This document shows positions 21,314-32,538 of a stretch of 64,000 nt of DNA, in pieces. The DNA is taken from contig CACHMJ010000001.1 in the NCBI GenBank assembly GCA_902580895.1, forward strand, positions 186,001 through 250,000. Direction: 5' to 3'. This DNA comes from an uncultured Pelagibacteraceae bacterium (GTDB lineage: Bacteria; Pseudomonadota; Alphaproteobacteria; Pelagibacterales; Pelagibacteraceae). Positions within the stretch are counted from its first letter, which is position 1, and the number at the start of each line of letters is the position of its first letter. Under the pieces are notes generated by a model. It made no database searches, was not told the origin of the DNA, and was given only the letters and a program-made list of their open reading frames with translations. Both the position numbers and the translations under genes were made by a program.

Positions 21314-22780
21314 ATGAAAAAAGATAAAAAACTAAATCCAGAGCTTGCTTTAGGATTTACAGATAGAAAAGGTGATGAATTATTAGTTAAAGATCGTTTA
21401 ATTGAAATCATCAAAAAAAATTTTCAACTTTACGGATTCGAGCCTTTAGAGACACCAGGATTTGAGCTTTCAGAGAATATTGGTAAATTTTTACCAGATG
21501 AGGATAGACCAATGTCTGGAGTTTTTGGTTTTAAAGATAAAAGCCAATGGTTATCATTAAGATATGATTTAACAGCCCCGCTTGCACGTTATGTATCAAG
21601 GAACTACAGAGATCTTTCAAGACCTTTTAAAAGATACCAAATAGGAACTGTTTGGAGAAATGAAAAACCAGGCCCTGGAAGATATAGGGAATTTACACAA
21701 ATTGATGCAGATATTGTTGGAACAAAAAATATTTATGCAGATGCTGAGCTATGCATGTTGATGGCAGATACCTTAATTAAATGTGGTTTAGAAAAAGATA
21801 GGTTTATAATCAAGATTAATAATAGAAAAATATTTCAAGGAATTCTTGAATTTTTTGAAATAAAAGATCCAAAGCAAAGTTTAACTATACTTAGATCAAT
21901 TGATAAATTTCAAACTGTTGGAAAAAAAGGGGTATTAGAACTTTTAACAAAAGGAAGATTAGATAAATCTGGTGATTTCACTAAAGGGGCAAATTTAAAA
22001 AAAGAGATAGCCGAAGAGATTTTTGAATTATTATCTGCTGACTCAATTATAAGAGATAAAAAAACTGGCGTATGTAGACTATCAGCAGGTGACTCATTAT
22101 TTAAAATTGAGAACGATACTTATTTAGAGGGATTAAAAGAAGTTGATACTATTTTAAATTATATGGGTGAAAATAAAGAGGTAAATATAATGAGCACAGA
22201 TTTATCATTTAAGCAAGATATGATTAACTTTCAAATGGATCTGTCCGTTGTAAGAGGTCTAGAATATTATACTGGCACAGTAATGGAGGCAGAGACAACT
22301 GATACTTCATTTTGGAAATCATCAAGAGACGCAAATGCATTTAAAAAAATAAAATTGAATTCACTTTCTGGTGGGGGCAGATATGACAAACTTGTATCAA
22401 GGTTTTTAAATGATGACTATCCATCTGTGGGAATATCTATTGGTCTAGATAGAATTTTAATGCTTTTAAAAGATAAATATAAAGATCAAACATTAAAAAA
22501 TCCTATAATAATTTGTGTTTTCGACAAAAAGTATTTTTCAAAATACAATGAAATTTTACAGACACTAAGATCAGCAAATATCAATTCTGAAATTTATATT
22601 GGAGACGGAAATCTAAAATCTCAAATGAAATACGCAGATAAAAGAAATGCTCCAGCTGTAATTTTTTGTGGTGACAATGAAATTAAATCTGGAAAAATTA
22701 CGTTAAAAAACTTGAAGTCTGGAGATGAAATTTCTTTAGAATTAAAAAATCTTACTAATGAAATCAAAAAAATTATCTAA
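21314..22780 (+). CDS. hisS: histidyl-tRNA synthetase
   Basis: Class II motifs LRYDLTAPLARYVSRN, RYQIGTVWRNEKPGPGRYREFTQIDADIVG, SLSGGGRYDKLV, VGISIGLDRIL. Confidence 0.96.
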   Translation: MKKDKKLNPELALGFTDRKGDELLVKDRLIEIIKKNFQLYGFEPLETPGFELSENIGKFLPDEDRPMSGVFGFKDKSQWLSLRYDLTAPLARYVSRNYRDLSRPFKRYQIGTVWRNEKPGPGRYREFTQIDADIVGTKNIYADAELCMLMADTLIKCGLEKDRFIIKINNRKIFQGILEFFEIKDPKQSLTILRSIDKFQTVGKKGVLELLTKGRLDKSGDFTKGANLKKEIAEEIFELLSADSIIRDKKTGVCRLSAGDSLFKIENDTYLEGLKEVDTILNYMGENKEVNIMSTDLSFKQDMINFQMDLSVVRGLEYYTGTVMEAETTDTSFWKSSRDANAFKKIKLNSLSGGGRYDKLVSRFLNDDYPSVGISIGLDRILMLLKDKYKDQTLKNPIIICVFDKKYFSKYNEILQTLRSANINSEIYIGDGNLKSQMKYADKRNAPAVIFCGDNEIKSGKITLKNLKSGDEISLELKNLTNEIKKII

Positions 22781-23819
22781 TAAAATCCTTAAAACTATTA
22801 AGTCTAGAGGATTTAAGTTTGTTGAATTACCTCCCGTAATAGAGGCTAGCCATATTCTTCAAAGATCAGGCGAAAATTTTAGAAAATATTTGTTCTCTTT
22901 CAACAATTCTGAAGGTAAAGAATTTGCTTTAAATCCTGATCTAAGTCTTTCAGCTATATTGCATTTCGCAAAAAAGGATGTCAACAAAAGAGAAAAAATT
23001 TTTTACTCAGGTAACGCTTTTAGAAAATCTTATAATAATAAAAAGACAGTTATTGACCAAATAGGAATAGAGATTTTTTCATCTAAAGATGAAAACAAAG
23101 ATGACAAGGAAATAATTGATACCTCAATAAAAATGTTGAAAACTTCAGGATTTAAAAAAGCAACAATAAAAATTGGTAATTTTAAATTATTCGAACTTTT
23201 AATTAGAAAACTTCCAGTCGTACCTAGATGGCAAAATCGTTTAATTAAATTTTATTGGAATGAGAAATATTTTTCAGAACTCTTAAAAAGACTAGAAAGT
23301 AATCTAGATATTGATCCTTTTGTAGTTTCTGCAGATCATAAAATTTATCTAAAAATGAAAAAAGATAATCCGAACAAGATGATTGCAGGTAGATCGTATA
23401 AAGAAATACTTTCAAGGTACGAAAATAAACTACAAAATCCAAGAATAACAAAAACTGGAAAATATAGTGCTAAAGTTATTAAAGAATTTCTAAAGATCAA
23501 AACATCTTTAAAAGATGCTCCAGATAAACTTAATAGATTTTTCAAAAAATATAATTTGAATATATTTGTTGGTAAAGATTTTTTTCCAATCACTAATTTT
23601 GGTCAAAAAAATCTCAAGTATGAATTTTCAGCCAGCAACGGTCGCGGTAAAGAAGTTGAGTATTACGACTCATTTAATTTTTCAATTGATGTAAAATTAA
23701 AAAATAAGACAAAGACTTATATTGCAGGGGGTCGCTACAACAATATGGCACAAAAAAATCTTGGCTTAAAAAGGATTCCTGCTGTAGGTGCTGCAATTAA
23801 TCTTGGAGTATATGAATAA
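22758..23819 (+). CDS. hisZ: HisZ-like ATP phosphoribosyltransferase regulatory subunit
   Basis: HisRS-paralog architecture (FVELPPVIEASHIL...ALNPDLSLSAIL...AGGRYNNM) between hisS and hisG. Confidence 0.8.
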   Translation: MKSKKLSNKILKTIKSRGFKFVELPPVIEASHILQRSGENFRKYLFSFNNSEGKEFALNPDLSLSAILHFAKKDVNKREKIFYSGNAFRKSYNNKKTVIDQIGIEIFSSKDENKDDKEIIDTSIKMLKTSGFKKATIKIGNFKLFELLIRKLPVVPRWQNRLIKFYWNEKYFSELLKRLESNLDIDPFVVSADHKIYLKMKKDNPNKMIAGRSYKEILSRYENKLQNPRITKTGKYSAKVIKEFLKIKTSLKDAPDKLNRFFKKYNLNIFVGKDFFPITNFGQKNLKYEFSASNGRGKEVEYYDSFNFSIDVKLKNKTKTYIAGGRYNNMAQKNLGLKRIPAVGAAINLGVYE

Positions 23820-24501
23820 AGAAATAATTAATATAGGGTGTGTTTCCAAGGGAAGGCTGAAAATTCAATCCGAACAAATATTAAAAAAAAAGAAACTTAA
23901 AGTTTTTTTTGATAGAGGAGAGAGAGAACTAATCGGTAAAGTCAGAGGAAGAGATGATATTTCAGTATCATTTATGCACGCAAGAGAAATTTTAGAACAG
24001 TTATCTATTGGAAACTTAGATATTGGAATAAGTGGATTAGATCTTTTAAAAGAGTCTGAAATAAATATTCAAAAAAATATAAAATTAGAAAAAAAACTAA
24101 ATTTTGGTTTCGCAACCCTAGTTCTTGCTTGTAGGAATGAATTCATTGATTTGTTTACTACTCTAGACCTTGATGAGGTCGCAGAAGATTACAAAAAAAA
24201 GAATAAATCTTTATTAAAAATTGGAACAAAGTATCCAAATCTTACAAGAGAATTTCTTTATTCAAGAGGTGTCACCAACTTTACTATAGTTAAGTCACTC
24301 GGTAGTACAGAATTAATGTGTGCAATGAATACTGCGCAGCTTATATGTGATATCAGCAGCTCGGGGACTACAATTAAACAAAACAATCTTAGAATATTAA
24401 ATGATGGAGAAATATTAAAATCTCAAGCTTGTATATTTAGCTCAAAGAAAAGTAAGAAGAAAAAGGGGTTAAAAAGTTTAATAAGATTACTTACCAAGTA
24501 A
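23812..24501 (+). CDS. hisG: ATP phosphoribosyltransferase catalytic subunit
   Basis: GCVSKGRLKIQSEQIL, GRDDISVSFMHAREILEQLSIGNLDIGISGLDLL, TKYPNLTREF, ICDISSSGTTIKQNNL; start trimmed to ATG 23812. Confidence 0.95.
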   Translation: MNKEIINIGCVSKGRLKIQSEQILKKKKLKVFFDRGERELIGKVRGRDDISVSFMHAREILEQLSIGNLDIGISGLDLLKESEINIQKNIKLEKKLNFGFATLVLACRNEFIDLFTTLDLDEVAEDYKKKNKSLLKIGTKYPNLTREFLYSRGVTNFTIVKSLGSTELMCAMNTAQLICDISSSGTTIKQNNLRILNDGEILKSQACIFSSKKSKKKKGLKSLIRLLTK

Positions 24502-24654: not shown

Positions 24655-25848
24655 TCATTTGTGGCCTATTTTCTCTTTTCCTGTAAAGTACAAATCTTTT
24701 CCTTTGGCTTTTATCATCCAATCGTGATGAAAAGGAATTTTTTTTTTATTTTTTTTAAGTGCCTTTTTGACTGCTTTCATTATTTTTTCTGCTCCCAATA
24801 CAGGTACAGCCATTCCGATTTGTCTTCTAATAGACTCTTTTCCACCAACAAAATTATATTCGTCTGGAAAAGTTTGTAATCTTGCTCTTTCTCTATTTGT
24901 TAAAGCTCTATTTTCTTTATAATGATACACATGTGTTCCACCACCACCACTTCCAGTGACAGTATATGCAGGTTTTGAACTATCTAGTCTTTTATAGATG
25001 TGGCTCATTCTTGCTTTTTTAACTCCAGGGAGACCATCTTTATCATCACCTAAATCCCAAACATTTTTACCTTCAGCTGTCTTTTTCAATCTTCTTATTA
25101 CTCTTTCATCATGATTTGTTAGTTCTTGGTGTTGTGCCCATTTAGGTATTTTTTGGAGAGCTTTTTTACAAGTGGTGTAAGGTCCTTCTATTTTTTTTGG
25201 CTTTTCAAAGTTAATGTTATTTTCTTCAAAAAAATCACCTTTAAAACCAACTAGTATAATTCTATGCCTAGTTTGTGGAATTCCATATTCTTCAAACTTA
25301 TAATTGTCTGCGTAAATTCTATATCCATGTTTAGAGCATTTAGCTAAATCACTCATTATTTTTTTAAAATTTTGGTAATTTAGATTTTTTAATTTTTCCT
25401 TATCAAATTTTTTCTCTTTCTCCATTACAACTGGATCTGATGAATTATATTTCAATTTTTTACCTAGAGAGGTAACGTTTTCCGCAACAAAGAATTCTGG
25501 TTCAAAAAAATTTAACACATCACATGCATATGTATATAAACCACCAAATTCACCCTCCATTTTTTTATTTTTTCCAACTAGACTAAAATCATTGCAAGGA
25601 AATCCAAATAAAAGACCATTAATTTTTCCAAAATCTTTCCTTATTTTTTCAAGCCTTTTTGGCTTTGAAAAGTTTTCTATTTTTTCATGAAAAGTTTCAC
25701 ATTTTTGATTATTTTTAAACGTTTCACAGGAGTCTTTATCAATATCAATGCCCCAAATATGTTCAAAACCAGCTTTTTTTGCTCCTTCAGCAAAACCGCC
25801 AGCTCCACAAAATAATTCAGCAATTTTTATCTTATTCTCTCTTGACAT
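24655..25848 (-). CDS. DNA (cytosine-5-)-methyltransferase, Dcm type
   Basis: Motif I AELFCGAGGFAEG, IV GFPCNDFSLVG, VI FVAENV, VIII YGIPQTRHRIILVGF, IX/X TNRERARLQTFPDEY...RQIGMAVP; start trimmed to MSRENKIK from the ORF-track start at 25944. Confidence 0.96.
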   Translation of the reverse strand: MSRENKIKIAELFCGAGGFAEGAKKAGFEHIWGIDIDKDSCETFKNNQKCETFHEKIENFSKPKRLEKIRKDFGKINGLLFGFPCNDFSLVGKNKKMEGEFGGLYTYACDVLNFFEPEFFVAENVTSLGKKLKYNSSDPVVMEKEKKFDKEKLKNLNYQNFKKIMSDLAKCSKHGYRIYADNYKFEEYGIPQTRHRIILVGFKGDFFEENNINFEKPKKIEGPYTTCKKALQKIPKWAQHQELTNHDERVIRRLKKTAEGKNVWDLGDDKDGLPGVKKARMSHIYKRLDSSKPAYTVTGSGGGGTHVYHYKENRALTNRERARLQTFPDEYNFVGGKESIRRQIGMAVPVLGAEKIMKAVKKALKKNKKKIPFHHDWMIKAKGKDLYFTGKEKIGHK

Positions 25849-25883
25849 TTCCACAGAAGATATATATATGTTCTGTGAGAATG
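25846..25883. promoter_or_regulatory. inverted repeat in the divergent promoter region, candidate operator
   Basis: CATTTCCACAGAA-N12-TTCTGTGAGAATG: 11 of 13 positions complementary, including a perfect CACAGAA/TTCTGTG core; covers the methyltransferase start codon. Confidence 0.5.
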
Positions 25884-25911
25884 TCAAATGGATATTATAT
25901 AAGGTAAATTT

Positions 25912-26199
25912 ATGGTAAAACCTAAAAAAACAAGAACTAGTCATTTAAATCCCTCTGAAAAATTTGAGTACTATTTTAATCTTAGAATGAGTTTACTTAA
26001 AAGTGCTCTTAGAGGAGTTGGAAACCTATCTAACAGAAATGTTTACGAGATTCCCGATGGAGCAAAAAAAATTATAGAAAGTAAAATGAAGGAATGGAGT
26101 AAAGAGTATGTGTTGGATAAATGGAATAAAAGTTCAAAAAAAGTAGAAAATTTAAAGAAACCAGAAAGTCTTTACGACCAATATTTTAAAAAAAAATGA
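25912..26199 (+). CDS. hypothetical protein (95 aa), divergent from the methyltransferase
   Basis: Intact ORF; YYFNLRMSLLKSALRGVGNLSNRNVYEIPDGAKKIIESKMKEW; no family assigned. Confidence 0.6.
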   Translation: MVKPKKTRTSHLNPSEKFEYYFNLRMSLLKSALRGVGNLSNRNVYEIPDGAKKIIESKMKEWSKEYVLDKWNKSSKKVENLKKPESLYDQYFKKK

Positions 26200-26358
26200 A
26201 TTATGGAATTGATGCACGTTAAAAAGAAGAGGTTATCATACACGGTGAGCAACAACATCGATAGAGCACTTACAATACCTCTCGCCAGAGTGCATCCTGG
26301 TTTTATCCTTTGTTTGTGTTCAATAGTTGCAATTAGCAAGTTGACTATGCAAATTTTA

Positions 26359-26408
26359 ATGCGTGCAAAGCTACACCTTTCTTTCTTTCTATGTAGCTTG
26401 TACGCGTT
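26359..26408. other. long imperfect hairpin in noncoding segment (candidate structured RNA or DNA site)
   Basis: AATGCGTGCAAAGCTACA pairs with TGTAGCTTGTACGCGTT (17 pairs, one bulge, two G-U), loop cctttctttctttcta. Confidence 0.6.
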
Positions 26409-26433
26409 AAAAAATAACCACAAAGGAGTTTAA

Positions 26434-26712
26434 TTGAAAAAAAATTATTTTCATTCTTGTTTACAGGATAGATTGCAATACGCCCAAGAGTTTGCAAAGG
26501 ATTACACACTATATTTACAAAGTGTTGAATTTACCAAAAAAACTGAGAGGGAATTTTATAAAAATAATAAAATATTATTTTTACTAAATAAGATTCTTAA
26601 TTTACCAACTAATACACTAAAATTTATAAAAGTTTCAAAAAGTAAGTTTATTTTAAAAAAATGTTTAAATGAGATTGAAGTAATTAAAAAAGAATTAAAA
26701 AATTATGAATAA
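26434..26712 (+). CDS. hypothetical protein (92 aa), first gene of the GHKL ATPase operon
   Basis: TTG start with AAAGGAG ribosome-binding site at 26422-26428; overlaps next gene by 8 nt. Confidence 0.6.
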   Translation: MKKNYFHSCLQDRLQYAQEFAKDYTLYLQSVEFTKKTEREFYKNNKILFLLNKILNLPTNTLKFIKVSKSKFILKKCLNEIEVIKKELKNYE

Positions 26713-28879
26713 GTTGCTTGAAATATTGAACTGGGTAATAAGACTTAAACAAAAAGGAGAGGGTCATGATGTATCAAAATCTACAGAAAAATTTAAATGG
26801 TACAGTGTGATTCTAGAATTTATTCAAAATACAATTGATTCAAATATTAAATTTAATAAAGAATTAAGAGAAAAAAATAATAATCATCAAGATTTACCTG
26901 CACATATTAAAATTTCATTTACAAAAGTAAAATTTTCAGATTTTGTTAAAAATTTCATTACAAAAAAATTTAAATCAGTTTTAGGATTGAGTAGACTTAA
27001 GCCAGGTGCTGTAAAAGAACTTGAGGGCCAAGATCATACAGATTTATTAATTTTAGAGGATTTCAATACTCAAGGTATTTTAGGGGATCATAGAAAATAT
27101 AGTAGCGCACTAGAAAATGGTAAAGATAATCCTATCTTTAGATTTAATTTTTATGTTGGAGATGATCAAAAACTTGATGATCCTGACCTAGGTGGTAGTG
27201 AAGGTGAAGGACGACAAACTTTTTATTATGCTTCAAAAATTTCTACATTTTTTTATTATACTATAAGAGAGAATAAAATTCCTTTGTTGTATGGAATGAC
27301 ATTTGTTGGAAATGCTAAAGATGAAAATGGTAAAAGTTGGATGCCAGTGTTAAGATATGGCGAAGAAGTAGTTTTAAAAGGTGAATTGGGTGATGGAGAT
27401 GATAAAATTCCCACAGATTTAAGTTATGCCATTCCCTCAGAAAATGAGGAATGTAACAAAATTTTTAAAAATATAATTCCAATTAAAAGAGATAATGAGA
27501 CAGGAACTTCAATTGTAATTCCCTATTATGACAGAAGATATCTTAAAAAAGATAGAGTTATTTCAAAAATAATTGAGGTCTATAGAGTTTTAATCCTCAG
27601 GGGACAGCTAGTTATTGAAATTGATGATGAAATCATTAATTCATCAACAATAGATAAGCTTTGTGCTAAATATTCAACTTCAGAGGAAATTAAGCTACAG
27701 AATACACTTAAGTATTTTGGTTTTTTAAAAGAAATTGATAATAAAAATTATGAGTTCGAAACTTACTTAAATTATACAAAAGGAATAAATTTTTTTGACG
27801 AAAAAATTATTCCAGAATTTCATGAATTTACAAAACATTTTAATGCAGGCAAAATAGTTAAGTTAAGATGTAACTATAATCTTAACAAAAAAGTTGATGG
27901 AAGAGTTGGAGATAGAGAAAAAAACATTAATACTTTCTTTGACTTATATTTAAAAAAATCTGAGGACCAAATAAGGTCTTATCAGTTAAATGATTTTATT
28001 AGAGGTAGTCTATCAATATACGATGAAAAAAAAAAATTGGATTGTTTTGCATTAGTAGACGTTCAGGACGACGAAGCGAAGCTTTTCTTTAAGTGTGCAG
28101 AAGGTGCAAATCACTCAATTTGGGACCCAACTCTTTGGAAATTAGATAATTACTATACCGAAACTTATGGAGATGTAGTCAGGTTTGCAAAAAAAGCACC
28201 AGAGCAAATTTTAAGGTTAATTGAAGCAAAAGATACAAGACCTGATTATGATACCTTTAGTGATTTATTTCCAGATTTAAGCGATGAGGGCAAAAAAAAG
28301 AAAAAAAAGAAAAAGAAGCAGCAAAAAATTATCACACCTCCATTTGTTCCAAACATATATGGAAAACTTAAAAATTATGAAGTTGATGAAACTAAACAGA
28401 AAGATGGTGGATTTTATGTGAAAGGCAATTCTTTTGAAAAAAAAGAAATTGTTTCAAAAATTTCTGAAATGGGAAAGGATCAAGAAACTTTAATTGAATT
28501 CATTAATAAAGAGGAAGATGAAGACAAAAAGGAAATATTGTCTAATTATTTGGTAACAATAAAAAGAAGAATAAAAGAATATGAACAATTTGTTGAAAAT
28601 GGATGTGATAATTTTCCAATCAACATACGATTAAAAATGGCTTTTGAAGGTGAGAATTTAGGAAATCCATTTAAAAAATATGATCCAAAAAAACATTTTG
28701 ATTTAGATAAAAATAAAGAATTTAATTTTAATATTGAAGGCGATGTTACTTTAAAAAAATGTTCAGAAAACGTAATTGTTTTATCAGCCTCTTCTTCTAA
28801 TTTTAAATTTTTATTAACAGGTTTTTCAAAAATTTCAAATTATGATGTAGCTGTTCAAGACAAAGAGGAACAAATATAA
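26705..28879 (+). CDS. GHKL-fold ATPase (MutL/MORC/HSP90-like), defence-associated candidate
   Basis: N-box-like EFIQNTIDSN, G1-like ILEDFNTQGI, G2-like GGSEGEGRQTFYYASKISTFF; 724 aa. Confidence 0.75.
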   Translation: MNKLLEILNWVIRLKQKGEGHDVSKSTEKFKWYSVILEFIQNTIDSNIKFNKELREKNNNHQDLPAHIKISFTKVKFSDFVKNFITKKFKSVLGLSRLKPGAVKELEGQDHTDLLILEDFNTQGILGDHRKYSSALENGKDNPIFRFNFYVGDDQKLDDPDLGGSEGEGRQTFYYASKISTFFYYTIRENKIPLLYGMTFVGNAKDENGKSWMPVLRYGEEVVLKGELGDGDDKIPTDLSYAIPSENEECNKIFKNIIPIKRDNETGTSIVIPYYDRRYLKKDRVISKIIEVYRVLILRGQLVIEIDDEIINSSTIDKLCAKYSTSEEIKLQNTLKYFGFLKEIDNKNYEFETYLNYTKGINFFDEKIIPEFHEFTKHFNAGKIVKLRCNYNLNKKVDGRVGDREKNINTFFDLYLKKSEDQIRSYQLNDFIRGSLSIYDEKKKLDCFALVDVQDDEAKLFFKCAEGANHSIWDPTLWKLDNYYTETYGDVVRFAKKAPEQILRLIEAKDTRPDYDTFSDLFPDLSDEGKKKKKKKKKQQKIITPPFVPNIYGKLKNYEVDETKQKDGGFYVKGNSFEKKEIVSKISEMGKDQETLIEFINKEEDEDKKEILSNYLVTIKRRIKEYEQFVENGCDNFPINIRLKMAFEGENLGNPFKKYDPKKHFDLDKNKEFNFNIEGDVTLKKCSENVIVLSASSSNFKFLLTGFSKISNYDVAVQDKEEQI

Positions 28880-29748
28880 TGGGTCAAATAACTCTTCAAA
28901 AAAGAAAAAGACGTAAAATTACAACAGCATTTCCAACTCCAGAAATAATTCTAGAAGGGTTTCAAGAAAATGAGAATGTAAAATTTTTTGTAAAAATTAA
29001 TCTCGTTGATAGTGAGAAATATTTATCAAAAGATAGCAAAATTATTTTATACCCTATGACAAAACAAGGGGTTGTCTTGCTTCCAATTTATCTCGGCACT
29101 GTTGGTAAGATTGAAATCGATGAAAAAGGATATTTTGTTACTGACGAAATGATGGAAAATTTGTATTTTAATCTCAAAATTTCCACAGCCAATTCAAATG
29201 TAGAAGGTTTTGCCTATAAACTTAGATTTAAGAAGCCAGAAAGCGGCGAAGGAGAAGTTGAAGATCAAGATGGTGATCAACAATCAATATTGCCAATAGT
29301 TGAAGATCCAAATCAATCAATTCCTTTCAAAGTCTTAATGCAGCCAGTTCAAGGAGAACCACCCACTTTATTTGTAAGAACTGGACTAAAAAACAAAATA
29401 AAATCTTCAGCAATTACTCAATACATTGTGACGACTAGTGCAATAAAGACAATTATCACAAATTATATTCTAGATCGTGAAAGTGATGGCGATCTATTTA
29501 AGGAAAAGTGGGAAATATTAATAAAAGATTTAATAAATGATAAAAAATTTACATTTCCATCCAGAGAGGAAGCTCTTGATCGATCTGGAACTTTAAATTC
29601 TGAAATAGAAGATATTATCGAAGATGTAATAACTCAGTTTGGTAGAAAAAGAAAATTTAGAGGTACTCAATATTCATTAAGTGATGCATTCATTAATGAA
29701 GTGTCATTATCTCAAGAAGAGGGGGAAAATGAAAATGATAGTATGTGA
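28879..29748 (+). CDS. uncharacterised protein (289 aa) in ATPase-Vsr operon
   Basis: Intact ORF overlapping both neighbours; no recognised motif; acidic linker GEGEVEDQDGDQQ. Confidence 0.75.
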   Translation: MGQITLQKRKRRKITTAFPTPEIILEGFQENENVKFFVKINLVDSEKYLSKDSKIILYPMTKQGVVLLPIYLGTVGKIEIDEKGYFVTDEMMENLYFNLKISTANSNVEGFAYKLRFKKPESGEGEVEDQDGDQQSILPIVEDPNQSIPFKVLMQPVQGEPPTLFVRTGLKNKIKSSAITQYIVTTSAIKTIITNYILDRESDGDLFKEKWEILIKDLINDKKFTFPSREEALDRSGTLNSEIEDIIEDVITQFGRKRKFRGTQYSLSDAFINEVSLSQEEGENENDSM

Positions 29749-30514
29749 GTTTAATGATGATGGATATAAAGCTTACAAATCGTTAATAACTGATATCCAA
29801 GATGAGGTTGCAAAAAATGATGGTGATGTAATTAAAGGATACAATAAAGACTTAAAAAATAGAGTTAAAGAACTTCAAAAAAATAAAATCTTAACAAGAA
29901 ATTTTGAATATCAAATTTCCTTAGATGTAAAACAATTTCAAAATAGACATGAGCTAGGAATTTATTTGCATGAGGTCTTTCAAAAAGTACCCACTTTCAA
30001 ATTAGTAAATAATTATAAACTTTGGGATTGGATATCATTACAGTATTTTGATTTAATTTTTACTGAGAAAGGAACAGCATCGGATTGGAGATTTAGGCTA
30101 ATTGATGATCATAAATTAAAATTTAGAAATTTAATGTATGTCCCATGGTGGTTATTAAGACACTACGGAAAAGAAGATTCTCGAATTTTTTTAACAAGAC
30201 TAAATTTAGATACAGCAGGAGATTGGAATGAACAATTTATGAAAAAAAATCATGTACGAAATTACAAAAAAATAGCACATATATGTCATATACTTTTTTA
30301 TGATGAAGAAGAAAAAAGAGATATACCCGGTACAAGCAAGGGAAATATTGGAGCGTTACAAGATTTTTGTGATGAAGTTAAGTACTTAAATTTAATCTAT
30401 GATTTATTTGAAATGTCAAATAAAGAAATCTTAGAAAAACTTCCAAAGAGATTTTTTAATTATATGAAAAAAATAGGCAAGGAAGTCAAGGTTGATGGAA
30501 AGATATTTAGTTAA
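29729..30514 (+). CDS. uncharacterised protein, possibly DUF6339-like
   Basis: Start placed at ATG 29729 after an AAGAGGGGGA SD; SDWRFRLIDDHKLKFRNLMYVPWWLLRHYG...SRIFLTRLNLDTAGDWNEQF; the family label is from memory only. Confidence 0.65.
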   Translation: MKMIVCEFNDDGYKAYKSLITDIQDEVAKNDGDVIKGYNKDLKNRVKELQKNKILTRNFEYQISLDVKQFQNRHELGIYLHEVFQKVPTFKLVNNYKLWDWISLQYFDLIFTEKGTASDWRFRLIDDHKLKFRNLMYVPWWLLRHYGKEDSRIFLTRLNLDTAGDWNEQFMKKNHVRNYKKIAHICHILFYDEEEKRDIPGTSKGNIGALQDFCDEVKYLNLIYDLFEMSNKEILEKLPKRFFNYMKKIGKEVKVDGKIFS

Positions 30515-30537
30515 TTTTAATTATAATTTTTTATTTA

Positions 30538-30906
30538 ATGTCTTATTCTAAAAATACTAAGCCAGAAAAATTGATTAGATCTTTATTATATAAAAATGGT
30601 TATAGATTTAGAATTCATGTGAAAAAACTTCCTGGTAAACCAGATATTGTTCTACATAAACATAAAACAATTTTAAATGTTCATGGTTGTTATTGGCACT
30701 ATCATGGCTGCGCTCATAGTAATGTGCCAAAGACTAAAACTCAATATTGGATAGAAAGATTAGAGCTTAATAAAAAGAGAGATTTTATTAATAAAGATAA
30801 ACTTAAAAAATTAGGTTGGAAAGTCATTGATGTATGGGAGTGTACTTTAAAAGGAAAGAATATTGATAAAACTTTTAACACCCTGGAACGTCTAATCATT
30901 GCCTAA
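30538..30906 (+). CDS. vsr: very-short-patch-repair (Vsr-type) endonuclease
   Basis: MSYSKNTKPEKLIRSLLYKNGYRFRIHVKKLPGKPDIVLHKHKTILNVHGCYWHYHGC...KLGWKVIDVWECTL. Confidence 0.93.
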   Translation: MSYSKNTKPEKLIRSLLYKNGYRFRIHVKKLPGKPDIVLHKHKTILNVHGCYWHYHGCAHSNVPKTKTQYWIERLELNKKRDFINKDKLKKLGWKVIDVWECTLKGKNIDKTFNTLERLIIA

Positions 30907-31189
30907 AGATATATATCAAATTATGGATAAAAGTTACTTAATGGAGCTGAAACTATCAGAATTAAAATCAGAAAATCAAAAAGAAGTTTTCTTTAGATAT
31001 TTATCTATCGCTGAGCATTACATTTCTACTGAAAATGAAAAAGAGGCTGAGAAGATTTTAAAAAATTTGGGCTATAATAAAAAAACCATCAAGTCATTCA
31101 TAAAAACAGTTCAAAATCATGTTGCTTCAGAATTTCAAGATATGAAAGAAATTATGATGGGCAAGGTTCCAAAGAGGTTATTAAATTGA
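30899..31189 (+). CDS. hypothetical protein (up to 96 aa)
   Basis: Overlaps vsr end; start could be TTG 30899 or ATG 30923. Confidence 0.5.
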   Translation: MPKDIYQIMDKSYLMELKLSELKSENQKEVFFRYLSIAEHYISTENEKEAEKILKNLGYNKKTIKSFIKTVQNHVASEFQDMKEIMMGKVPKRLLN

Positions 31190-31398
31190 TGCTAATTTTT
31201 AATTACAAATCTAAAAAAGAGCTTAAGGAAAATATAGGAAAAACACTTAATTATACTGAAACAAGTATGTTTGGACCAGAGTATAAGGAAAGTGGAGTGT
31301 TAGTTGGCAGCAACAGGCCTTATTCAACTGAGAATAAAGGACGTGAATTTTTTGCAGAAGTAACGATAAAAAATAACATAATCGTAAAAGTAAATTGA
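31186..31398 (+). CDS. small hypothetical protein of a type seen in marine phages (from memory)
   Basis: FNYKSKKELKENIGKTLNYTETSMFGPEYKESGVLVGSNRP...REFFAEVTIKNNIIVKV; TGATG overlap with previous ORF. Confidence 0.5.
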   Translation: MMLIFNYKSKKELKENIGKTLNYTETSMFGPEYKESGVLVGSNRPYSTENKGREFFAEVTIKNNIIVKVN

Positions 31399-31440
31399 AA
31401 AAAACTTTAAATATAATCAAGGAGGTATAACATACGAATC

Positions 31441-32538
31441 ATGGACACAATTTTAATAATAATTTTAGGTTTATTGCTTATAGCAACATTAGCAATTCTA
31501 TATTTGAATATTAAGACTAAGACCAAAAAAGAGGATGAAAATAAAGAGGCTGAAGAAATAGCGAATTTGAATGCAGAAATTGTAAAACTAAAAGATAGTT
31601 TAAATGCAACAATTAATACTTCATTAAGTTCCATGTCCACATCTTTTAACGCTCTGTCAACCGGTGTTACAAAAGACATGACTGAGGCTTTAACTAAGGT
31701 TGATGAAAAGGTTGGAAATTTCAATCAACAGGTTCAATTATTAAATCAAAGCCAAGAAGGTATTACAAAAATACTAGCTGGCGTTAAGAAATATGGTGTT
31801 TTAGCAGAGAGCAGCCTCGATGCTCTTATGAGGGATTTATTACCTGCATCCCAATTTATGACTAATGTGAAGATGAAAGAGGATACTAGTGAGAATGTGG
31901 AATTTGCTATCAAACTTCAAGGAGATGTTTTGGTCCCAGTGGACTCTCATTTTCCGGTAGAAAAATTCAAAGCAATAACTGATGCGCATGAGGCAGATGA
32001 TAAAAAAGCAGTTGCTGATTCTAGAGCCAAATTAGCAAGCGCTTTTAAATTGAAAGCAAAAAGCGTTAATGAGAAATATATTGTGCCACCAAAAACAACT
32101 GATTTTGCCATAGTTTATGCTGCCTCAGAAAGTCTTTATAGAGAATTAACTGAATATCAAGATCCAAGCTCAAAAGAACTACTAACCCAGGAACTAATGA
32201 GAAAGTATAAGATAGTCATCTGCGGTCCTAATACTCTTTCAGCTTATTTACAGTCATTACACATGGGTTTTCAATCATTGAAAGTTCAAAAAGGAGCGGT
32301 CGAAATTTACAATCATTTAAAAACAATCAGCACAAGATTTGCTAAGCATTTTGATAATGTAATAGTTTTAAGAAAAAAACTAGATGAAGCGATGAGTGTT
32401 GTTGATAAGTTTGGAACGGATGCTAGATCAATTACTAGAACTTTGGAAAATATTAAAGATCCCGAGCAAGTTGAAAAAGCTGTACTAACTGAGAACGTTG
32501 AGAATTTCGTTGAGAGAAATAGACAAGTTAAAAAATAA
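31441..32538 (+). CDS. RmuC-domain protein
   Basis: N-terminal TM, coiled coil, then NVEFAIKLQGDVLVPVDSHFPVEKF...EKYIVPPKTTDFAIVYAASESLYREL. Confidence 0.85.
   Translation: MDTILIIILGLLLIATLAILYLNIKTKTKKEDENKEAEEIANLNAEIVKLKDSLNATINTSLSSMSTSFNALSTGVTKDMTEALTKVDEKVGNFNQQVQLLNQSQEGITKILAGVKKYGVLAESSLDALMRDLLPASQFMTNVKMKEDTSENVEFAIKLQGDVLVPVDSHFPVEKFKAITDAHEADDKKAVADSRAKLASAFKLKAKSVNEKYIVPPKTTDFAIVYAASESLYRELTEYQDPSSKELLTQELMRKYKIVICGPNTLSAYLQSLHMGFQSLKVQKGAVEIYNHLKTISTRFAKHFDNVIVLRKKLDEAMSVVDKFGTDARSITRTLENIKDPEQVEKAVLTENVENFVERNRQVKK

Follow-up and report, generated by a model that had tools for sequence, protein, structure and literature searches.

Positions 26205–26412 of the plus strand almost certainly specify a conserved, structured RNA that belongs to an anti-phage-type, restriction-like operon of a SAR11 ocean bacterium. 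The window in which it lies is the whole stretch of DNA that was analysed, 64,000 nt. The RNA is undescribed: the region had no match in Rfam 15 at the gathering threshold, and permissive thresholds yielded chance-level miRNA and snoRNA models. That the segment is a structured RNA of the defence locus had been proposed in an initial, sequence-only reading, and this assignment is now strongly supported by covariation and by the exclusive co-occurrence of the RNA with the system. The core of the RNA is a predicted double pseudoknot of about 120 nt, named domain I.

The segment, its operon and its relatives

The segment was initially noticed for its composition and a long hairpin. Its GC content is 36.2% (26200–26439), versus 21.2% in 26440–26679 and 27.5% in 25960–26199. 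The segment is less AT-rich than the stretches that adjoin it, as had been claimed; since other stretches of the neighbourhood reach 35–37.5% GC, it is GC-rich for its spot, not unique. The plus strand of the 234-nt segment folded with a minimum free energy of −61.9 kcal/mol (z = −3.5) and none of 200 shuffled sequences folded as well, whereas the minus strand was unremarkable against shuffles (z = −1.2). The long hairpin exists and is slightly longer than first described, with 21 pairs between 26354–26375 and 26392–26412, a single bulged A (26369) and a 16-nt loop (26376–26391).

The operon type comprises, in order, a divergent C5-methyltransferase gene, sm1, the RNA element, sm2 and the genes for the ATPase, p290, p270 and a Vsr-family endonuclease (Table 1). 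The element had been placed just upstream of the ATPase gene; in the window it directly precedes the gene encoding the 92-residue protein sm2 (TTG at 26434), and the ATPase gene starts at 26705. According to an AlphaFold2 model (pLDDT 91.5), sm2 is helical throughout. The ATPase had no match to a Pfam HATPase family or to the PDB. Its assignment as a putative GHKL-type enzyme is based on inspection of its motifs, whose residues were invariant in eight homologues (alignment A14), and on the PADLOC candidate model PDC-M33A (E = 9.7e-14). The AlphaFold2 model of p270 (29681–30514) was confident (pLDDT 85.5), and a comparison with the PDB identified no similar fold. The operon is flanked by his genes (hisS, hisZ-like and hisG) and by p96, p70 and RmuC-like genes (21314–24501 and 30899–32538); it occupies the same chromosomal place, a defence hot spot, in the window, L033 (G308) and L034 (G382). 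Loci L030 (8782–9258) and L031 (7677–8147) carry an extra conserved gene of ~157 codons between p270 and Vsr that is absent from the window.

Table 1. Features of the operon and of the RNA element in the window.
Feature	Position	Strand	Basis and remarks
C5-cytosine DNA methyltransferase	24655..25848	−	Divergent; PF00145, E = 3.8e-59
sm1, 95-aa Lys/Arg-rich small protein	25912..26199	+	Alignment A2, module comparison; swapped among relatives
Open frame, 76 codons, possibly translated leader frame	26203..26433	+	Stop TAA abuts sm2 TTG start
Domain I, universal, predicted double pseudoknot, about 120 nt	26205..26325	+	Models R1 and R2; covariation
P1	26211-26217 (GAUGCAC) with 26290-26296 (GUGCAUC), P5 loop	+	7 pairs in 13/13; pseudoknot
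P2	26228-26233 (AGAGGU) with 26277-26282 (ACCUCU)	+	Paired in 13/13; 2 pairs changed on both sides; crosses P4
P3 hairpin, CGGUG/CAUCG, 8-nt loop	26243-26247/26256-26260	+	Paired in 13/13
P4	26264-26269 + 26272-26274 with 26316-26321 + 26311-26313 (overall 26264..26321)	+	7 of 9 pairs changed on both sides, n = 13
P5 hairpin, GCCAG/CUGGU	26284-26288/26297-26301	+	Paired in 13/13; one pair G-C, U-A or U-G
P6, group A only, UUGCA/UGCAA with inner UAG/CUA	26327..26352	+	Nearly invariant; pairing predicted
P7 hairpin, 21 bp + bulged A, 16-nt loop	26354..26412	+	98% of cells paired, 8 distinct sequences
sm2, 92-aa all-helical small protein, TTG start 26434	26434..26712	+	Homologues; AlphaFold2
Putative GHKL-type ATPase, 724 aa	26705..28879	+	E..QN..D, G..G and GGSEGEG motifs; paraMORC-like by context
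p290	28879-29748	+	Swapped with ATPase and p270 (p290 + p270 block 28879..30514)
p270	29681-30514	+	Swapped with ATPase and p290
Vsr-family endonuclease	30538..30906	+	PF03852, E = 1.4e-21; TIGR00632 above cut-off

A DNA similarity search of the family and of phages returned chance matches in coding genes only, such as aldehyde-oxidase-like (L008–L010) and PilT-like (L012) genes. Relatives were therefore approached through the neighbouring proteins. The ATPase was found in 7 of 397 family genomes, at 27–100% identity. In L029, L030 and L032, an intergenic stretch of ~125 nt between sm2 and the ATPase gene aligned with positions 26196–26312 of the window. A covariance model built from these three loci and the window, R1, matched 6 of the 397 genomes with E-values of 1e-13 to 1e-32, which are rough, R1 being a home-built model; all six were among the seven that encode the ATPase. 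The sole family genome with the operon but without the RNA was G208. In this genome, a different short ORF of ~55 codons (L031:3693–3883; MSNSLKWIVIPFLG...) occupies the place where the RNA would be.

With a scan of GTDB contigs for DNA patterns and later searches, the total came to 14 distinct sequences: that of the window and 13 from further Pelagibacteraceae. All are from one bacterial family and lie within one operon type, where the RNA is always in the sense strand between sm1 and the ATPase gene. The window's own genome holds a single copy, and no other of the 385 genomes searched in the class had one. IMG/VR scans with the ATPase and sm2 found no relatives, IMG/VR loci retrieved with two DNA patterns contained nothing significant according to R1, and a tblastn search of plasmids with the ATPase and p270 gave no match. 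An R1 match in Photobacterium (L070, E = 0.057) lay inside an 884-codon gene and was rejected as chance. We refer to the window and ten other sequences, which possess domains I and II, as group A, and to L087, L100 and L077, which possess domain I alone, as group B. A model built from group A alone recovered group B with E-values, again rough, of about 1e-9 to 1e-8.

Helices and covariation

For domain I, a curated structure was tested, as RNAalifold's own group A structure for this domain lacked the pseudoknot helices. P1 and P2 cross P4, and the 5' strand of P1 pairs with the P5 loop (AGUGCAUC); domain I would thus be a double pseudoknot if all of the helices form together. P4 is the clearest case of covariation. 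Its stem is formed by AGAGCACUUACA/UGUUUGUGUUCA in the window; group B has GGAUUUGAAGUU/AACUUCAAAUCC and L115 has ...GGG/CCC.... In group B, the stem is a perfect 12-bp helix of unrelated sequence in the same place, a result matched by 0 of 20,000 shuffles. The pairing of AGAGGT with ACCTCT, which the sequence-only reading had suggested, corresponds to P2 and is present, conserved and supported by two covarying pairs. In P1, a C-G pair became A-U through changes on both sides in group B; in P3, a G-C pair became A-U in L066 and L115.

These changes were evaluated in a structure-aware alignment of 13 sequences, A16. In this alignment, whose fit to P3, P4 and P5 makes the counts for those helices lean towards the structure, 99.3% of 416 pair cells (32 pairs) were standard and 12 of the 32 pairs were changed on both sides, with all five domain I helices contributing. 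P1 and P2 are absent from the fitted model, yet they covary. The covariation score was 0.339, as compared with 0.151 ± 0.015 for shuffles (0 of 500 reached it) and at most 0.108 for slid structures. In an ungapped, ordinary MAFFT alignment of group A alone, there were four pairs with both partners altered, a number that no shuffle attained. Finally, 425 of 432 cells held standard pairs when read on the plus strand versus 381 on the minus strand, which indicates a sense RNA. The sequence-only reading had said that its proposal could fail if compensatory changes were lacking or if the segment proved to be decayed coding sequence; such changes are in fact plentiful, and the segment is no decayed gene.

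Domain II is limited to group A. The sequence changes in P7, which it carries, mostly preserve pairs through G-U, and covariation in this helix alone was not above that of shuffles. P7 is therefore supported by how conserved and stable it is, not by compensatory change. The TTGC-AATTA-GCAA mini-hairpin described earlier is present at 26327–26339, but RNAalifold prefers, across relatives, the overlapping UUGCA/UGCAA pairing of P6. The stretch is nearly invariant, so evolution cannot choose between the two pairings.

Position, module exchange and function

The neighbours of the RNA are exchanged among relatives. Conservation within group A is high for the methyltransferase, the RNA, sm2 and Vsr, whereas sm1 and the ATPase–p290–p270 block are replaced in the same operon place by versions of about 26–43% identity. 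This exchange was seen across positions 24655–30906 of the window and L029–L034, L056, L068, L086, L095, L096 and L115. In the comparison of the window with L059/L033, the RNAs were 96.7% identical and the ATPases 26% identical. In L066/L034, the RNA is kept without sm2. Because the RNA is constant while the ATPases differ, it does not follow one effector type. This speaks against an antitoxin dedicated to the ATPase block and is consistent with a regulator of whatever follows.

The spacing of the RNA from the next gene is also conserved. Counting from the end of the final conserved helix (P7 for group A, P4 for group B), the next start codon is 21–23 nt away in 12 of 13 loci and 14 nt away in the remaining one, and the 21–23-nt spacing is the same whether sm2 or the ATPase gene comes next. 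Domain I itself ends farther from the start codon in group A (about 110 nt) than in group B (22 nt). The element is thus in the sense strand, immediately upstream of the next gene and at a conserved spacing, as expected of a cis-regulatory leader. Neither of two expression platforms, occlusion of the ribosome-binding site or a terminator, was kept in all loci: L059 and L066 lack the Shine-Dalgarno pairing of the window's minimum-free-energy fold (UCCUUUGU/ACAAAGGA), and group B lacks the U-tail that would make P5 a hairpin-plus-U terminator.

Mainly because of the fixed distance to the next start codon, we favour, with moderate confidence, the hypothesis that the double-pseudoknotted RNA acts within the sense mRNA as a cis gate on translation of the genes that follow, sm2 and/or ATPase–p290–p270–Vsr. 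A ribosome coming from sm1 (in group B, from sm2) would have to unfold the pseudoknot and then re-initiate at the next gene, and this unfolding would couple upstream translation to that of the effectors. Stabilization of the fold, for example by a small basic protein of the operon such as sm1, might keep the effector block silent for as long as the host DNA still awaits protection by the methyltransferase, whose gene is transcribed divergently. R-M systems need such a delay of the nuclease until methylation (PMC3874152, PMC2997769), and pseudoknot leaders close to start codons have precedents in SAR11 (PMC2704228). Several points count against a cis gate: the two expression platforms are not conserved, the distance of domain I from the start codon differs between the groups, the tight spacing may be mere operon compactness, and a direct test in the PvuII R-M system attributed no role to gene overlap or hairpins (PMC2997769).

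Action in trans is the main alternative, though a less likely one. In this case the RNA, once processed from the mRNA, would bind a protein of the system and serve as its antitoxin, scaffold or sensor; the pairs of ToxI with ToxN and of RCd22 with AbiF are precedents. The elaborate double pseudoknot would suit such a role, as would the exclusivity of the RNA to the system, its position upstream of the effectors and its conservation beyond that of a neighbouring gene (99.2% versus 79.8% DNA identity in L029/L032); moreover, the AbiF RNA acts both in cis and in trans (PMC12373285). However, the RNA is unchanged where the ATPase, p290 and p270 are exchanged, and sm2 is missing from L066/L034, which leaves the methyltransferase, Vsr or sm1 as the potential partner in trans. 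Further, G208 has the operon without the RNA, and we saw no conserved separate promoter or terminator. We consider it unlikely that the RNA is an essential subunit working in trans as a partner, antitoxin or sensor within a methyltransferase/GHKL-ATPase/Vsr complex. Of the three roles listed in the sequence-only reading, the regulatory leader fits best and an RNA component is possible; the third, a recombination or mobile site, is unlikely given that the element is single-copy in each genome and never found outside the system.

The open frame and remaining alternatives

The two short ORFs that overlap the element had been regarded as artefacts. This holds for the minus-strand ORF (26172–26423), which gains stops in relatives and is not conserved. 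It may not hold for the plus-strand frame, which was open in all 14 distinct sequences (in group A, 0 stops versus 3.0 expected; P = 0.02). The frame starts near the upstream stop in most loci, L123 having no in-frame ATG there, and it usually ends directly against the next start codon. The frame may therefore be translated.

Nevertheless, the plus-strand frame showed no protein-level selection. It contained 28 synonymous changes as compared with 22–26 expected, versus 101 and 38 in the sm2 control from the same loci, and its changes fell 20/33/35 across the three codon positions, versus 37/30/102 in that control. Of 25 codons that differ between the two groups, only one was a synonymous change, and the between-group coding score was about zero (z = 0.1–0.6). 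The GC content at third positions was 0.43, versus 0.15–0.21 in genes, and the predicted product matched no protein family. A third small protein encoded by an mRNA that is also structured would account for the open frame and its junctions with the neighbouring genes; in light of these codon data and of L123, it is improbable. We infer that the RNA is translated through, or kept open for coupling, rather than encoding a conserved protein.

A DNA-level site, such as an attC-like site, a recombination hot spot or a MITE, that mediates the swapping of flanking modules is very improbable. Modules are indeed exchanged on both sides of the element, and GTTAAAA occurs at the base of the hairpin. However, changes consistent with G-U pairing favour a plus-strand RNA, the operon encodes no integrase, and Vsr, which has no such element beside it, likewise marks a boundary of the variable blocks. 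An integron attC site was specifically rejected: no operon protein matched an integrase, the box pattern is wrong, and P7 is a near-perfect, continuous 21-bp helix that lacks the unpaired spacer of attC. That the fold arose by chance in decayed sequence, conceivable in the simple, AT-rich intergenic DNA of SAR11, is refuted by all of the covariation results.

The operon resembles the MORC/paraMORC R-M operons surveyed by Iyer, Abhiman and Aravind in 2008 (PMC2292703), whose gene-neighbourhood figure lists Candidatus Pelagibacter, in combining a GHKL ATPase, here a putative one, with a C5-methylase and a Vsr-family nuclease. It differs in possessing p290, p270 and two small proteins and in having no match to a helicase among its proteins, an SFII helicase being present in about 70% of MORC operons; the text of the survey makes no mention of RNA. 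Type III toxin-antitoxin RNAs (ToxIN, PMC5772629) and AbiF RCd22 (PMC12373285) are likewise pseudoknotted or structured sense RNAs beside a defence gene. Unlike those, the present RNA has no tandem repeats and no related toxin, the operon having no match to the ToxN, CptN, TenpN or Abi_2 families, and its downstream effectors are exchanged while it stays constant. The rpsB leader and metY-associated pseudoknot of SAR11 (PMC2704228) share a sense-strand pseudoknot close to a start codon, but differ in sequence and topology; further, the present element lies in a defence operon and has an open frame through it. Regulation of type II R-M systems by C proteins or by the antisense RNAs of EcoRI and Eco29kI (PMC3874152), or as in PvuII (PMC2997769), answers a similar need to delay the nuclease until methylation, but a structured sense RNA is neither an antisense RNA nor a C protein. 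Two further classes were rejected: a retron or DRT ncRNA, as the operon proteins include no reverse transcriptase, and a CRISPR or OMEGA guide RNA, as the variable positions are mostly covarying stems and there is no TnpB, IscB or Cas protein.

To hold back a restriction nuclease until methylation, known systems use C proteins, antisense RNAs, or tricks that involve codons or promoters. If the cis gate is correct, a double-pseudoknot RNA in the mRNA of GHKL-ATPase/Vsr effectors would be a new way of delaying a nuclease; alternatively, the data would indicate that a restriction-like system contains an RNA subunit. The effector enzymes are potentially dangerous, and the RNA in their messenger most likely controls their amount. 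SAR11 are among the most abundant bacteria of the sea, and the RNA provides a sequence-and-structure handle for finding a poorly annotated SAR11 defence system, several of whose proteins escape Pfam, whereas searches recovered the RNA with E-values as low as 1e-31. As a separate observation, TGCA occurs five times in the element (26209–26375) in group A and is mostly conserved; these occurrences could matter if they overlap the recognition site of the methyltransferase.
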